A DNA stretch of 64,000 nucleotides from Nodosilinea sp. FACHB-141 (GTDB lineage Bacteria > Cyanobacteriota > Cyanobacteriia > Phormidesmidales > Phormidesmidaceae): assembly GCF_014696135.1 (NCBI RefSeq), contig NZ_JACJPP010000011.1, positions 372,001-436,000 of the forward strand, written 5' to 3'. The notes beneath the pieces were generated by a model that was given only the letters and a program-made list of their open reading frames with translations, had not been told where the DNA came from and made no database searches. This document shows positions 20,442 to 27,600 of this stretch, piece after piece. Numbering within the stretch: the first letter of the stretch is position 1; every line of letters begins with the position of its first letter. The position numbers were made by a program, and so were the translations under genes.

Positions 20442-20972
20442 ATGGCTGATTTTTATGTGAGCTGGGACGACTATCACCGGGATATTGAAAAGCTCGCCAT
20501 ACAGATCTACGAGTCAGGCTGGGACTTTAACCAAATCGTTTGCCTGGCCAAGGGGGGCTTACGCATCGGTGACACCCTCTGTCGGCTGTTCGATGTGCCC
20601 CTGGCAATTTTGTCCACCGCCTCCTACGGTGGGGCCGATGGCCGCACCCGAGGGTCGATCACTTTCTCCCGCGATCTGAGCATGACTACCCCCAGTCTGG
20701 GTAGCCAGGTACTGATCGTCGACGACCTAGTCGATTCAGGCTACAGCCTCAAGAAATCCATGGCCTGGCTGCACCACAAATATGGTTTCTACATCGAAGA
20801 TGTGCGCACAGCTGTACTTTGGTACAAAGCTGAATCGATCATCAAGCCTGACTATCACGTGGTCTATCTACCCGATAACCCGTGGATTCATCAGCCCTTT
20901 GAACGCTACGAAACTATGAGCCCGGCCGAGCTGGCGGCTAGTTATCAGCTTCAGCCGGAGCCGGCGACTTAG
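20442..20972 (+). CDS. Phosphoribosyltransferase (PRT family, xanthine/guanine-like)
   Basis: This type I phosphoribosyltransferase of 176 residues has the PRPP loop VLIVDDLVDSGYSL (two acidic residues then the Thr/Ser-Gly turn) near residue 93. It also has the pyrophosphate loop IVCLAKGGLRIGDTL near residue 32, and a C-terminal YHVVYLPDNPWIHQPFERYE hood resembling the xanthine/hypoxanthine group, in which W-I is typical. It may salvage a purine base or act as a regulator; specificity is not evident. Its last 35 bp overlap the end of the convergent TPR-CD225 gene. Confidence 0.85.
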   Translation: MADFYVSWDDYHRDIEKLAIQIYESGWDFNQIVCLAKGGLRIGDTLCRLFDVPLAILSTASYGGADGRTRGSITFSRDLSMTTPSLGSQVLIVDDLVDSGYSLKKSMAWLHHKYGFYIEDVRTAVLWYKAESIIKPDYHVVYLPDNPWIHQPFERYETMSPAELAASYQLQPEPAT

Positions 20973-22143
20973 GGGAAGTTAGCTCCGCCGGGGCGGCAGA
21001 AGCTTCAGGCGGGCTGTAGAGGTGCTGGTAGCTCCAGTAGCCCATCAGCATCGTCACTAGGGTCAGGGAAATAACGCTTCCGGCTCGGCACAGCCCCTGA
21101 ATTGTCTTAGAGGCTCGCAAGGCACTGAGATAGTCGCCCTGCTGGTAGGCCTGACGCAGATTCATAGCGCAGGCTAGGGCCGGAATGCCCAGGGGTGGAA
21201 AAATCACAAAGGCGGTGAGCAAGACTCGATGCCACCGGGCGGGGGGGCAGGGTTGCCCCTGAAACACCTTGTAATGGCCCCGCCACTCAACTACCGGCTG
21301 ACCTTGCACTTGGCCTGTGAGGTCGAAGCTGTGAATGTCATCCATTTGCCAGCTGATGAGCAGGGCGCGAATCTGATCGGGCAGGGTGAAATAGTTTAGC
21401 CCTACCCCCACCGGGCGGTGGATTTGAATGCGGAAACGGTCGTCTAAGTACTCGGCCTCGACGACGACTTGCTTAAGTCCCAACTCCGCCTGTAGGCGCT
21501 GGGAGAGGGCGCGATCGCGGTGAACCTGCTGCAGGTGGTGCAGCTTTAGCCGCGCCTGATCGAGGTTGAGATCGTTGCAGAGGGCCAGCTCCCAGTCGTG
21601 GGCAGCGGCGATGGTTTGCCCGAGCTGCTCGTGAACGTGGCCTCGGTGCAGGTAGGCCTCAGCCAGGTTGGGATTGGCGGCAATGGCGGCATCAAAATCG
21701 GCTAGGGCGGCGACATAGTCCTGCTGTCGAAAGTACAGCAGCCCCCGGTTGTAGTGAATTAGAGCATGGCCGGGCTGGTGCTGCAGCGCCTGTTGCCAGT
21801 CGGCCAGGGCCAGGTCATCTCGCCCCTGCTGGCAGTGGAGCAGGCCGCGATTGCCGTAGGCGCGCACGTTGGCAGGATCAAGGGCGATCGCCGCCGAAAA
21901 ATGCTCCAGCGCCGCCCCTGTGTCCTCAATCTGCCAGTATGCCTTGCCCAGCTCAATGTGGATATCGGCCGGACAGGGCGAATGGTCTAGGGCCTGGGGC
22001 AAAACCGTCAGCGCTACCTCAATGTTGCCCTTCCGCATTTGGGTCAAAGCCTGCCGATGACGGTAGCGAGCCTGCTGACGACGTAACCAGGGGGTGAGGT
22101 AGAGTCCCATAACCTTGAAAATAGTGTGGAGGAGGAGAAGCAA
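20938..22143 (-). CDS. TPR protein with C-terminal CD225/dispanin-like membrane domain
   Basis: This 401-residue protein has an N-terminal hydrophobic helix (residues 1-20). TPR units lie at about 30-200 (for example RAYGNRGLLHCQQGRDDLAL, HYNRGLLYFRQQDYVAAL, EAYLHRGHVHEQLGQT). A beta-rich region at ~225-300 follows, with RIQIHRPVGVGLNYFTLPDQ. The C-terminal two-span segment at ~306-376 reads FPPLGIPALACAMNLRQAYQ, then GDYLSALRASKTIQGLC. This last part fits the CD225/dispanin pattern (hydrophobic span, cytosolic 'GD...A..AS..A', second span). The fold predicts a membrane-anchored scaffold. It is the fourth gene of a minus-strand group led by the PP2C phosphatase; co-transcription is possible but gaps are 100-150 bp. 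Confidence 0.75.
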   Translation of the reverse strand: MLLLLHTIFKVMGLYLTPWLRRQQARYRHRQALTQMRKGNIEVALTVLPQALDHSPCPADIHIELGKAYWQIEDTGAALEHFSAAIALDPANVRAYGNRGLLHCQQGRDDLALADWQQALQHQPGHALIHYNRGLLYFRQQDYVAALADFDAAIAANPNLAEAYLHRGHVHEQLGQTIAAAHDWELALCNDLNLDQARLKLHHLQQVHRDRALSQRLQAELGLKQVVVEAEYLDDRFRIQIHRPVGVGLNYFTLPDQIRALLISWQMDDIHSFDLTGQVQGQPVVEWRGHYKVFQGQPCPPARWHRVLLTAFVIFPPLGIPALACAMNLRQAYQQGDYLSALRASKTIQGLCRAGSVISLTLVTMLMGYWSYQHLYSPPEASAAPAELTSPKSPAPAEADN

Positions 22144-22296: not shown

Positions 22297-22917
22297 CTAT
22301 AGAGGCTCGCTACCCTCGTTCTGGGCCGCCTTGAGAGCCACTGAGGCTACAGTCAAGGTGAGCCGCGCTTGCTCTAGATTAGATAACGAGTCCCAGTCAG
22401 TCGCCGGAATTGCCCGCAGGTTAAGCTCTAAAATCTCGCCCCGGCCGTCGCGTAGAGAGTAGGCCAAGGGGCGAGCCAGCACCGCCAGGTCGTCAGCATC
22501 CCAGTCGGGCAGAATGTCATCCACGCACTGTACCAGCTGCTCGATCAGGGGTTGACCACTGCGGGCCAGGGCAGTGGCAGAGTTCGCCAGACGGTGCAGC
22601 AGCCCGCTGGGCACGCGACTCTGAAACTGTCGCAGCTGCTCAAGCACCGGATTGACTGTCTGATCCTCGGGGTCACCCATCTGGGTTGCCATCTGAGCAG
22701 ATAATACTTGCCATCCCGCTGCGATCGCAGCATCCGTCTCTCCGCCGTCGAGGGCGTCAAACTCTGTCTCTAGGCTAGCTAGGTAGGCCTCAGACTCAGG
22801 GGCCAGCGGTTGCCAAGGATACCCAGTTTCGGGGTCGAGAATACTGGCAAGCAAATCGTGTTCAGTGGCCATGGCGGGCTCAGAGGCGGAGTTGGAAGAC
22901 AGGGAAGACTGATTCAT
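22297..22917 (-). CDS. Uncharacterised protein between CHAT-FHA and TPR-CD225 genes
   Basis: I do not recognise this family. From the ATG at 22917 (MNQSSLSSNSASEPAMATEH) the product has 206 residues; an earlier in-frame start at 22977 adds 20 residues of unlike composition. The first ~20 residues are Ser-rich. The remainder is acidic and helical, with repeated Leu heptads (VNPVLEQLRQFQSRVPSGLL, LIEQLVQCVDDILPDWDADD). No signal peptide, metal motif or membrane span is visible. It lies 102 bp after the CHAT-FHA gene on the same strand, so it may belong to the same functional group. Confidence 0.65.
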   Translation of the reverse strand: MNQSSLSSNSASEPAMATEHDLLASILDPETGYPWQPLAPESEAYLASLETEFDALDGGETDAAIAAGWQVLSAQMATQMGDPEDQTVNPVLEQLRQFQSRVPSGLLHRLANSATALARSGQPLIEQLVQCVDDILPDWDADDLAVLARPLAYSLRDGRGEILELNLRAIPATDWDSLSNLEQARLTLTVASVALKAAQNEGSEPL

Positions 22918-23019
22918 AGCGTTATCTACAGATGCACAAGAGGGTAACAAAGCCTGATGACTGTGGATACACCGCACTGCTGAGGGATTCCGTACGGAGC
23001 GAACAATTTCCTGATTTCC

Positions 23020-24660
23020 CTAGCAGGGCGGGGATGATTTGGGGCTACCCTCAAGGGTAAATTCCATCAGTTCGCCTTCCGGACTGCCAAACCGAATGGC
23101 CGTGCCCAGGGCGAGGGGCACCTCGGCCCGGTGGACGTGGTGCCAGCCGTGGTTGTCAAAGTAGTACGACCCATAGCGGGAGCGATCGCGCAAGTAATAG
23201 TGGGTCTCCTGCGTGCCGTTCTCAAACTGGGTGCGGCAAAATATTTCCGCATGCTGCCCCGAGACCCATGGTTCTAGGATGACCAAGTCGTTGTCGGGCA
23301 GTCGCCCCACCCGCAGATAGCCGTCGTAGAGGCGCCACAGGCGGGTCGGGGTGGCCAAGCAGCGCAGCACTACCGATTGGGTCATGCGCAGGTCTTGTCC
23401 CGGCAGCTGGGTCACAGCCAGGGCCGCCTCGCGCAGCAGATGCCCTTCAAACTGAGGGTGCTGGTATAGCACCGGCAGCGTCCAGGCCGGGTGGTTAAAG
23501 CGGTAGGCCGTCAGCAGATGTTGGCGGGCCAGGGCCACCGCCTGAGCGACCGGCTGCCGCTCGGCCAGCCCCCGAGCCAGCACCTGAATAAAACTCAGCG
23601 CCTCCTCGTCGGCAATGGAGTCGCGCATGGCCAGCACCGCCGGCACCCCGTGGTGTAGTAGCACCTCCGCCAGACTGCTGCGGGGGATGACCTCCTGCTG
23701 TTGCAGGTCGGGCTGGGCTCCCCAGCAGGTGTTAAACACCGCCAGCCGAATGCCGTTGTGAGCCAGCCCCTGGGCCAGCTCCGTGCCGGTGAGGTTGCCC
23801 CCCTGGCGCAGAAACAGCATTCCGCCGTCGGGGGCGGGCACCCCGTGACCCGCATAGAAGAACACGTTAAAGTAGCCGGTCTCCAAGGCCTTGAGCAGGG
23901 TTTTGGCATCGGGTTCTAGCAGGGTTTGCACCTGGCAAACCACGGGGCTCGCCCCCTGGTAGCTCAGGCGAGAGGCGCTCAGCTCCAGCAGCTGCTTCAG
24001 GGCCTCCGCTTCTTGGGGCAGTTGTAAAACCTGCTCGGTGTCTCCAGCGGTGATGCCGGGGTCGTCTTGACCCAGCACCAGCAGAATTCGCAGCGAGATA
24101 TCGAGCTCCGCCTCAGGCAGCGGCTCAACGGTGCTGGCAGTGCGGCTAAACAAAACTTGGGGGCCCAGCGACAGCGCTGGACAGCCGGGCTGGGGCTGCA
24201 TAATTTCCCAAGGCAGGCTGATTAACTCAGGCGGGCGCACCTCTAACCGCAGCTTAAGCGGGCGATTTTGACCGATCGCCATGCCCAGACTGCGCTCTAA
24301 GGTCTGACGAATGGGGCCGTCAAACAGCCACTCCCACAGGCTCACCCCAAGCCCCTGCATCAGTCGCCCGGTGTAGCCGCCGGCTTCTGCCGCCGGAGCT
24401 ACCCGGTCGAGCAGATCGTCGAGATGAAACTGGGGCACGTAGGCCGAGGGCACGTGGGGCACCTGGGGCAGCCCCCGCAGCGAAAAAAACTGCTGCCAGC
24501 TCTCCCATATTTGGGCCATTTGGCTATCCCAGAGGCGATCGTGGTGGGCATAGCCGCCCGGAAACGGACTCTCTAATACCCAAATAGCGTAGTGGGTAGA
24601 GTCGGCCTGGGTGAGGCGATCAATGGCAAGGCACAGGGTAAGGTCATCGAATGACGGCAT
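23020..24660 (-). CDS. CHAT protease-like protein with C-terminal FHA domain
   Basis: This 546-residue protein joins a caspase-like CHAT domain to an FHA phosphothreonine-binding domain. The CHAT region (~185-410) has NVFFYAGHGVPAPDGG with catalytic His272 and RLAVFNTCWGAQ with catalytic Cys312; both are intact. LISLPWEIMQPQP near residue 147 is the usual segment ahead of CHAT. The FHA domain (~445-535) carries LRVGRLPDNDLVI and WVSGQHAEIF, the phosphopeptide-contact Gly-Arg and Ser-x2-His loops. It starts 42 bp after the PP2C phosphatase gene, which makes an operon likely. The arrangement predicts a protease recruited by a phosphorylated partner. Its substrate is unknown. Confidence 0.88.
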   Translation of the reverse strand: MPSFDDLTLCLAIDRLTQADSTHYAIWVLESPFPGGYAHHDRLWDSQMAQIWESWQQFFSLRGLPQVPHVPSAYVPQFHLDDLLDRVAPAAEAGGYTGRLMQGLGVSLWEWLFDGPIRQTLERSLGMAIGQNRPLKLRLEVRPPELISLPWEIMQPQPGCPALSLGPQVLFSRTASTVEPLPEAELDISLRILLVLGQDDPGITAGDTEQVLQLPQEAEALKQLLELSASRLSYQGASPVVCQVQTLLEPDAKTLLKALETGYFNVFFYAGHGVPAPDGGMLFLRQGGNLTGTELAQGLAHNGIRLAVFNTCWGAQPDLQQQEVIPRSSLAEVLLHHGVPAVLAMRDSIADEEALSFIQVLARGLAERQPVAQAVALARQHLLTAYRFNHPAWTLPVLYQHPQFEGHLLREAALAVTQLPGQDLRMTQSVVLRCLATPTRLWRLYDGYLRVGRLPDNDLVILEPWVSGQHAEIFCRTQFENGTQETHYYLRDRSRYGSYYFDNHGWHHVHRAEVPLALGTAIRFGSPEGELMEFTLEGSPKSSPPC

Positions 24661-24702
24661 AGGCAGGCCTAAGGCATAGGGCCGGTAAATCAGGGGAGAC
24701 GG

Positions 24703-27084
24703 CTAGGGCGTGCAGCGACCCGCTTGGGCTGGGGTGACTAGCTTTAGCACCGTGCCTGCCCCATAGATCTGGCGAGTTTGCACCCAGCCCTCTTCCCCCG
24801 GAGCTAACAGGCGTTGACCTAGATTAGGGGCAGTAGGCAAGGCAGAAGGGGGTTGATTGGTTTCCTGAGGTTGTTGGTCAAGGGACTCGCCCGAGGGAAT
24901 TGAGCAGACCCGTAACCGCACCCACTCGACATTGTCCGCCGTGGTTTGGCGACTGACAACCCTGAGTACGCTACCTGTGGCTACGGCTCGAGTCTCTTCC
25001 GCTGCACTCAAGGCAGGCTGTGGGCCTAGCTGTAGCAGTTCACTGTTACCTGTTGCACTCAAAGGCGGTGCAGACTGCCAAAACGAGCCAACAGCGACCT
25101 CAACAATGGCGGCCAAGGCGGCTTCCGGTAGCGGTCGCCCCGCCAGAGCAGGTACCAACCCTGACGAGGCCATTGGCCGGAAAGCAACAGGCTCGGAGGA
25201 ATTGCGGCTCAAGGCAAAGCCCACACCCGCTAGCGCGGCGAGCACCACGCCCACACCTCCTAAGAAGGGCACCCAAGGAAAGCCTGATCGTCTGGGAACT
25301 GGGGTCGAATCGGCCGGTGAGACTGGGGCCACGAGCCGGGTTGACGGCGTTGCGGTTGAACTATTGTTCAAGGGCAGAGACCCAAGCACGCTGGGGGGAG
25401 TATTCTCTGCCTGCCGTAGGGAGCCCGCGGGTAGGATTGGCAGAGGGCCAAGCTGGGGCATAAACCGCATTAGCCCAACGGTGACATTATCGTGGCCATT
25501 GAGCCGATTCGCCTGCTGAATTAGGGCAGCTACAACCGGGCTGAGAGGACTGGGGGCGGTCGTTATAGGCGCTACCAAGTGGGGCGCAAGGATTTCGACG
25601 CGATCGTAGTCGCTGAGACCGTCAGAGCAGAGCAGTAGCACCATCGAGTCGTCGAGCAGATGATGCTGTACGGAGGGATATAGCATGCCCGAGTCGCTGA
25701 TGCCTAACGCCTGAATGAGCGCCCCTCCGCTAGGCAGCTGGACGGCCTCTGAGTAGAGGGCATAGCCCATTTGGGCTTCTCGGGACGCAACGTCGTCGTC
25801 TACTGTGATTTGGTAGCAGGTGTAAGGGCTGACTCGGTAAGCGCGACTGTCGCCAATGTGGGCGATGGAAACGTAGGGAAAATGCACCAGGGCCACTACT
25901 ACGGTGGTGCCCATGCGGGCGCGGGCTGAACGATTCTCGTCGTTATTGCGGGCAGAAATGGCGTCGTTGGCCAAGATCAGGGCCTGCTTGAGGCGCTGGG
26001 CGATCGCCCCTGGAGATGGGTAAGCCTGCTGAGTGAGGGGCTCTAGCTCCTGCTGAAGCAGCTTGATGGCCGTTTGGGAGGCCACATTGCCCTGCTCATG
26101 ACCGCCAATACCGTCGCACACCAGCAGCAACGGCAGGGTCTCAACGCTGTCCGCTGAGACCGGTAGGCGCTGCTGGCGCGAGTCTTTCTCGGGATAGCAG
26201 GCATCTTCGTTGCGATCGCGGCTTGGCCCCTGATCAGTATCTGCCGCCCAATCTACCGTCACTAGCAACCCCTGGGCTAGGGTATGAATGGCTCCCTCCA
26301 GTTCGGCTACCAGCTCTTGCTCAGAAGCTAATTTCCCCTCCTTGAGGGTTTTACACAGCCAACTGAGGTAGGGGCGCACCTCGGGTTGAGCCGTGGCCAC
26401 CAGCGACTGCCACTGCTGGCTCAGCTGAGCCAGGGTAGGGCTAGAATCGTCGGCCACCAGTGTGGTGAGCCGCAGTAGAGCACCATCTACCCGCAGGTTG
26501 TCGAGTTCTAGAAGGGTAGTAGCCAACTGCTCTTCCAGCAGCGCTGGCCACAGGGCTGCTACCTGCCGTAGCCAGTTGAGCTGCTGCAAAGGCGACCCCT
26601 CTGGCCACCGTTGAGCCAGCGAAGGTAGGACAGCGGCTTCAATTTTTCCCTGCCCAGGAGGAGCTCCTTTCTCGTCAACGCCCTGGGAATGCAGCCGCAT
26701 AGCAATGGGAGCGTTGTCCAAGAGCAACACCGTGGCCGATAGCCCAGTTTGCTCTGACGTTAGGTAGGCATAGGGGCGAGGAACCTGCTGGGCCAGGTGA
26801 AACAGCTTTAGGTAAGCCATTACCGGGGCCGGAATTCTTTCTAGGGTAGGGGGAGGAGTGTCGGGCCGGGTGTCGAGCCAGAGTTGATGCTTCCCCTGGG
26901 TCTGTTTTTGACCCTCGCCCCAGACCAAAAAACGCCCGGCAATCAGCGTGCCAGAGCGCCCGGTGAGCGGCCCATCGCCAACCGCCAGCAAAAAGCGATA
27001 CAGCAGGGGAGTTTGGCAAACCTTGCAGTGGCTGGCAGGTGGGGTCGAAACCGACCGACAAGAGGGGTTAGAGCACTGGAGCAC
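24703..27084 (-). CDS. PP2C-family Ser/Thr phosphatase with zinc ribbon and membrane anchor
   Basis: This 793-residue protein has an N-terminal four-Cys zinc ribbon (Cys 4, 9, 20, 23). A ~240-residue region of unknown fold follows (30-270). The PPM/PP2C domain lies at ~275-535. All metal-site motifs are present: DQGPSRDRNED (~284), LVCDGIGGHEQGNVAS, IAHIGDSRAYRV, LLCSDGLSDYDRV and GHDNVTVGLM. A Pro/Ser-rich stretch and one membrane span (~616-640, WVPFLGGVGVVLAALAGVG) follow, then a ~150-residue SH3-like C-terminal part that would lie outside the cytoplasm. It should remove phosphate from Ser/Thr. Its adjacency to a CHAT-FHA gene suggests it controls FHA binding. Confidence 0.88.
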   Translation of the reverse strand: MLQCSNPSCRSVSTPPASHCKVCQTPLLYRFLLAVGDGPLTGRSGTLIAGRFLVWGEGQKQTQGKHQLWLDTRPDTPPPTLERIPAPVMAYLKLFHLAQQVPRPYAYLTSEQTGLSATVLLLDNAPIAMRLHSQGVDEKGAPPGQGKIEAAVLPSLAQRWPEGSPLQQLNWLRQVAALWPALLEEQLATTLLELDNLRVDGALLRLTTLVADDSSPTLAQLSQQWQSLVATAQPEVRPYLSWLCKTLKEGKLASEQELVAELEGAIHTLAQGLLVTVDWAADTDQGPSRDRNEDACYPEKDSRQQRLPVSADSVETLPLLLVCDGIGGHEQGNVASQTAIKLLQQELEPLTQQAYPSPGAIAQRLKQALILANDAISARNNDENRSARARMGTTVVVALVHFPYVSIAHIGDSRAYRVSPYTCYQITVDDDVASREAQMGYALYSEAVQLPSGGALIQALGISDSGMLYPSVQHHLLDDSMVLLLCSDGLSDYDRVEILAPHLVAPITTAPSPLSPVVAALIQQANRLNGHDNVTVGLMRFMPQLGPLPILPAGSLRQAENTPPSVLGSLPLNNSSTATPSTRLVAPVSPADSTPVPRRSGFPWVPFLGGVGVVLAALAGVGFALSRNSSEPVAFRPMASSGLVPALAGRPLPEAALAAIVEVAVGSFWQSAPPLSATGNSELLQLGPQPALSAAEETRAVATGSVLRVVSRQTTADNVEWVRLRVCSIPSGESLDQQPQETNQPPSALPTAPNLGQRLLAPGEEGWVQTRQIYGAGTVLKLVTPAQAGRCTP

Positions 27085-27252: not shown

Positions 27253-27600
27253 CTAGCTAGCTGATTTATCGGCCTCAACTCGAGGTAGCCCCATGCTGTA
27301 GTTGAGGGCACGGCTCTTGAGGTTATAGCTAATAGCTCCCTGCTGCAGGAGCTGCCGAATAAAGTGCTCCAAATCGGAGCCAATGCGGCGCAGGTTATAG
27401 TCGGTCAAATCTTCTCCGGCGGCGGCATCGACCAGTCGATCAAACTCGGCATAGACAGCCTTGATGGCATCGTCAGACCAGTTGAACTCGTTGTCGGGGT
27501 CAATGTCTAGGGTGAGCTTATCTTCGCTGGGCACCAGCTCGTTGTTGGCAACAACAGCGGTGTAAATATGAACGTGCCGAGTGGTCGATTTGAGCATCAT
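27253..27600 (-). CDS. ndhM: NDH-1 subunit NdhM
   Basis: NdhM is an oxygenic-photosynthesis-specific subunit of the NDH-1 hydrophilic arm. The 115-residue product has [55 protein letters not shown] and [18 protein letters not shown], the family signature from start to end. The first two codons are both ATG (27600 and 27597), and either may be used. It stands between the PP2C and gloB genes on the minus strand. It is not next to the ndhF-ndhD genes, although it contributes to the same complexes. Confidence 0.95.

Follow-up and report, generated by a model that had tools for sequence, protein, structure and literature searches.

A cluster of three minus-strand genes in a cyanobacterial genome of 5.9 Mb encodes a membrane PP2C phosphatase, a protein that joins a CHAT protease domain to an FHA domain, and an acidic helical protein. 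We consider it somewhat better than an even chance that this locus is a second HetF/PatU3-type protease-substrate pair with probable control by phosphorylation. The cleavage itself, the cut site, the phosphorylation of Thr417, its removal by the PP2C and the process under control are what we infer. In the known pair, that of Anabaena, HetF cleaves PatU3 and both belong to a cell division and differentiation pathway (PMC12288457).

All positions refer to the window, the whole 64,000-nucleotide stretch of DNA that was analysed. On the minus strand the genes are read in the order ndhM, PP2C, CHAT-FHA and acidic PatU-like protein. The receptor-like PP2C phosphatase (24703..27084, 793 aa) is followed by the CHAT-FHA gene (23020..24660, 546 aa), whose open reading frame begins 42 bp past the PP2C stop and encodes a CHAT domain at about residues 105-402, a linker at 403-446 and an FHA domain at 447-540. 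The acidic partner (22297..22917, 206 aa) comes last. The three open reading frames lie where the sequence-only reading had placed them, and, as it had also said, the cluster holds no kinase gene. Among named strains, those with the nearest CHAT-FHA genes are Nodosilinea sp. FACHB-131 (98 %) and allied Leptolyngbya and Phormidium strains, which makes the source a Nodosilinea-like filamentous cyanobacterium. A scan for promoters and terminators found none in either gap, PP2C-CHAT or CHAT-partner, and the counts are close to the shuffled expectation.

Directly upstream of the PP2C gene is ndhM (NDH-1 subunit M, 27253..27600, minus strand), which holds this position at 53 of the 79 named loci, in different families, and is probably just a stable neighbour of the array. 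At window positions 20938-22143 lies a gene whose TPR product ends in a CD225 (IFITM-like) membrane domain. It had been described as following the cluster; the gene is indeed present, but it stands downstream of the array at only 14 of the 79 named loci. As all of these belong to close relatives, we rejected it as a fourth array member.

To estimate how far the arrangement is conserved, we surveyed 289 Cyanobacteriia genomes that are at least 95 % complete, counting as CHAT-FHA orthologues matches above 200 bits, a threshold passed in 150 genomes. The PP2C gene is directly upstream of CHAT-FHA on the same strand in 98 of the 130 testable genomes, namely those with the best PP2C position among the matches listed, so that the two genes are linked in a conserved order, as the sequence-only reading needed them to be. 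The acidic protein was found by profile search in 151 genomes, and in 117 of 148 its gene immediately follows CHAT-FHA; the full trio stands together on the same strand in 86 of 150. Across the 79 named loci the median gap is 62 bp between PP2C and CHAT and 129 bp between CHAT and partner, with 9 and 5 overlaps respectively, figures that are approximate since the longest ORF start was used throughout. This linkage is far above chance.

The distribution of the protease and the acidic partner is closer still. Both are present in 149 of the 289 genomes and both absent from 137, while two genomes have the partner only and one has CHAT-FHA only (Fisher p 4e-80, a value that ignores common descent). 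The co-occurrence persists when the genes are on separate contigs, and the two genes are jointly absent within families that otherwise have both (G160 in family f14, several genomes in f28). In the CHAT-only genome (G060) the contig ends at the partner's place. One partner-only genome (G095, L283:5734-6444) retains a short remnant of the FHA end between the PP2C gene and an intact PatU-like gene, and the protease was therefore lost recently there; in the other (G294) the PatU-like protein is present and CHAT-FHA was not detected. Because of this independence from contigs, the joint absences within families and the explanation of two of the three exceptions, we take the coupling to be real. For comparison, the PP2C is found in 238 of the 289 genomes, many of them without the protease, and it lies away from CHAT-FHA in about a quarter of the genomes that have CHAT-FHA. 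The near-obligate PatU-like protein is thus a more faithful partner of CHAT-FHA than the PP2C is. The genome with the protease remnant also has a HetF match restricted to the C-terminal part and no PatU.

The CHAT-FHA protein matches the Pfam CHAT family (PF12770) with an E value of 2e-20 and 73.9 bits against a cut-off of 24, and the Pfam FHA family with an E value of 5.5e-9. Together with the 42 bp spacing, these matches uphold the earlier description of a CHAT protein with an intact His272/Cys312 dyad and a C-terminal FHA domain. Both catalytic residues (codons at 23845..23847 and 23725..23727, minus strand) are invariant in 113 of 113 orthologues. In the FHA pocket, R453 is kept in 101, N457 in all 113, and S467 and H470 each in 112 of the 113 orthologues; the domain has the GR...S..H pattern expected of a putative phosphothreonine binder. 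This conservation shows strong selection on the catalytic dyad and on the greater part of the phosphothreonine pocket. The same genome encodes further CHAT proteins on contigs C2, C13 and C29, ten matches altogether, in frames of up to 1974 aa.

The protease is homologous to HetF across the whole CHAT domain, with 34 % identity and the same His and Cys, and carries the FHA domain and a linker with Thr417 where HetF has its C-terminal region. The HetF equivalog model (NF045509) calls for a full-length match above 1200 bits that includes the C-terminal region; CHAT-FHA reaches 154 bits over residues 103-416 only. A separate HetF-like gene in the same genome (C7:407547) scores 517 bits, itself under the family cut-off of 1200. 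Judged by sequence, CHAT-FHA is a paralogue of HetF and not HetF.

The third protein had been described as an unknown acidic helical protein. It is acidic (pI 4.05), lacks a transmembrane segment and is all-helical in the predicted model, but it is not unknown, since it is related to PatU. A near-invariant M21 in the alignment makes ATG 22917, giving 206 aa, the very probable start in place of GTG 22977. We found no family match for it in Pfam or NCBIfam, and a fold search with its model gave no convincing match, the Foldseek E values being above 1 and the best VIA Z score 4.5. When a profile of the partner was run against 146 genomes, three weak additional matches appeared, two of them in the gene that immediately follows hetZ; the upstream neighbour of these genes is HetZ (NF037963, 656 bits), and in filamentous cyanobacteria the gene after hetZ is patU (PMC7377430). 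We therefore compared the partner with a set of 30 PatU sequences. The hhalign probability was 90 % with one alignment pair and 57 % and 65 % with others, a variation among alignments that makes the figure itself nothing to lean on. The controls separate clearly: the profile score is 39-49, whereas 100 column shuffles gave no more than 20.5 and reversed profiles 18.6-20.9. A PatU HMM run against the 2,221 ORFs of the CHAT-FHA loci ranked partner proteins in all of its top 25 places, and conversely the partner HMM puts PatU first among the ORFs of PatU loci. The profile homology spans about 95 residues. The partner has 206 aa against about 330-390 for PatU, is without the PatU C-terminal part, is encoded beside its protease, and its locus has no hetZ nearby and usually an upstream PP2C gene. 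We accordingly class it as a distant homologue on profile evidence, PatU-like and not PatU.

Within this shared region, R156 of the PatU-like protein (codon 22450..22452, minus strand) is kept in 88 of 89 sequences and falls opposite R189 of PatU (30 of 30) in two independent alignments. Xing et al. 2022 reportedly mapped the HetF cut after Arg117 of PatU3. Residue 117 is this PatU-invariant Arg (30 of 30) in two of the three split PatU3 ORFs; the third has a longer start, which gives the Arg another number there. Because of its conservation and its alignment with this PatU Arg, R156 is the predicted P1 residue. The next residue is Gly, Asp or Ser in 83 of 89 sequences, and a stretch of variable length comes after it. 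In the predicted model Arg156 is in an ordered part (pLDDT about 91), at a helix end and not in a disordered loop.

Partner specificity was examined in 32 chosen genomes, hand-picked rather than random, with HetF-type matches accepted from about 440 bits upward although the family cut-off is 1200. All seven genomes with a HetF-type protease and without CHAT-FHA (G078, G079, G094, G106, G118, G127, G160) have PatU, and no PatU-like protein was found in them. All eight with CHAT-FHA and without HetF (G069, G074, G265, G268, G279, G283, G302, G306) have the PatU-like protein, and no PatU was found in them. The partner specificity is thus reciprocal in 15 genomes. The exception is G178 (3.8 Mb), which has PatU and CHAT-FHA, with HetF not detected.

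The phosphatase was described from the sequence as membrane-anchored with all its metal motifs, and this is borne out: the motif residues N292/E293/D294, D324-G325, D412, D488 and D532 are invariant in 67 orthologues and there is one hydrophobic segment (607-625). It matches Pfam PP2C_2 (E 9e-8) and NCBIfam PRK14559 (E 6e-70, under the PRK14559 cut-off), and the metal-binding Asp motifs and the fold place it in the PPM family, with tPphA, PstP and PppA closest to the catalytic domain (Foldseek/VIA, Z about 26; PppA Z 26.7). A four-Cys zinc ribbon (residues 1-30), resembling the start of the same genome's Ser/Thr kinases (40 % identity over 30 residues), precedes a folded middle domain (31-270) and the catalytic domain (275-540); beyond the single transmembrane segment lies a C-terminal domain with a Cys pair, C727 and C791, both retained in 22 of 23 orthologues. 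In the predicted model the strands and helices of the middle domain follow one another in a kinase-like order, and the VAIK, HRD and DFG residues are lacking; a degenerate kinase is possible there. The N-terminal domain gave a few weak viral kinase matches; profile comparison matches the zinc ribbon only, and the PDB matches listed are to PP2C. Sequence profiles thus lend no support to a pseudokinase at the N-terminus except at the zinc ribbon.

Phosphorylation enters the picture through the linker. T417 (codon 23410..23412, minus strand), in the motif [VI]T[EQR][LI]P, is the sole invariant residue of 405-445 (113 of 113 orthologues), and the motif is not kept at the corresponding place in the same genome's HetF. 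OdhI offers a characterised parallel: its FHA domain binds a phosphothreonine that lies just ahead of it in the chain, and a PP2C takes the phosphate off again (PMC2784874). The CHAT-FHA locus resembles the OdhI/GarA and Ppp/PstP systems in its conserved Thr about 30 residues before the FHA domain and in a PP2C as putative eraser; in contrast, OdhI and GarA inhibit metabolic enzymes and no protease is involved, and phosphorylation of the Thr is putative here. Taken together, the FHA domain, T417 as a candidate phosphothreonine and the PP2C neighbour suggest control by phosphorylation, and because an invariant Thr precedes the FHA domain, gating by the phosphatase is more plausible than it was in the sequence-only reading. 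Alternatively, T417 could be a structural residue. Binding of T417 by the protein's own FHA domain may not be universal, since the phosphate-binding Arg453 is substituted in 12 of 113 orthologues, all 12 of which still carry T417. The PatU-like protein has no conserved Thr that could serve as a phosphothreonine site, its only conserved candidate being Ser179, at 98 %.

We propose that CHAT-FHA, though not HetF, should by analogy work like HetF. As a caspase-fold Cys protease it would hold the PatU-like regulator and cut it, most likely after Arg156, and cleavage would remove or alter the regulator. In the HetF pathway, loss of patU3 is reported to suppress the loss of hetF. The FHA domain would add phosphothreonine control, a feature that HetF is without: a Ser/Thr kinase of the cell would phosphorylate Thr417 or a partner protein, and the FHA domain, by binding the phosphothreonine, would set the access or position of the protease. 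The membrane PP2C would then reset the switch upon a signal at its extracytoplasmic domain. By the same analogy the controlled process would probably be septum or envelope growth. In this full form, a HetF/PatU3-paralogous pair in which a caspase-like protease switched by FHA and phosphothreonine, and reset by a co-encoded transmembrane PP2C, acts on a PatU-type division or envelope regulator, the proposal is tentative and we place it a little short of even.

It is conceivable that the PatU-like protein is not cut at all and instead acts as a folded acidic adaptor, a stable subunit of CHAT-FHA or an inhibitor of it, which either keeps the protease inactive or guides it to its actual target. 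The confident, compact helical model, the near-obligate co-occurrence and the position of the predicted cut site within an ordered region are all what such an adaptor would show; the homology to PatU, with the split product PatU3 being cut by the paralogous protease HetF, and the retention in 88 of 89 sequences of an Arg aligned with that of PatU argue for a substrate, and we consider the adaptor unlikely, yet the most serious of the alternatives. In its simple form, the original idea would have the PP2C take phosphate from a phosphoprotein to which CHAT-FHA is recruited by way of the FHA domain, in a membrane-bound proteolytic or cell-death module to which the third protein is accessory. The order PP2C to CHAT-FHA in 98 of 130 testable genomes and the mostly conserved FHA pocket are in its favour, but CHAT-FHA is accompanied more faithfully by the third protein than by the PP2C, which many genomes have in the absence of CHAT-FHA, and nothing ties the locus to death or defence. 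The cell-death part is unsupported, the nearest characterised relatives, HetF and PatU3, being a division and differentiation pathway (PMC12288457), and we regard the idea as a whole as improbable. A defence role was rejected, as PADLOC gave only weak matches in the CHAT region (TmtA E 0.007, BovA E 0.05).

Finally, the CHAT domain might serve as a scaffold and not cut at all, in which case the array would form an FHA-based assembly platform like Fha in the threonine phosphorylation pathway of T6SS. The PP2C/FHA pairing resembles PppA/Fha (PMC6082577): as in the PpkA-PppA-Fha system, the PP2C gene shares a locus with an FHA protein, and PppA is one of the structures nearest to that of this PP2C. 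The CHAT-FHA locus has, however, neither a kinase gene nor a secretion system, and its FHA protein is a protease homologue. A His/Cys dyad kept in 113 of 113 orthologues is unexpected for a pure scaffold, and we hold this reading to be very improbable. The protease-substrate pair that we prefer has a further counterpart in Csx29-Csx30 (Craspase), where a CHAT protease is likewise encoded next to a single specific substrate, here putative; unlike CHAT-FHA, Craspase is activated by RNA guidance and its substrate is not PatU-like.

We found no paper on the locus, or joining CHAT, FHA and PP2C in cyanobacteria, in a literature coverage that is incomplete, and parts may be published. To our knowledge, few bacterial CHAT protease pathways have a known substrate; HetF/PatU3 is among them and has been studied in heterocyst formers. 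The present comparison indicates a sister pair in many other cyanobacteria and names its likely substrate and cut residue, and it would join Ser/Thr phosphorylation to the protease pair through the FHA domain and the PP2C. If true, this would be a phospho-gated caspase-fold pathway in bacteria, present in about half of the sampled cyanobacterial species, some of them without HetF.
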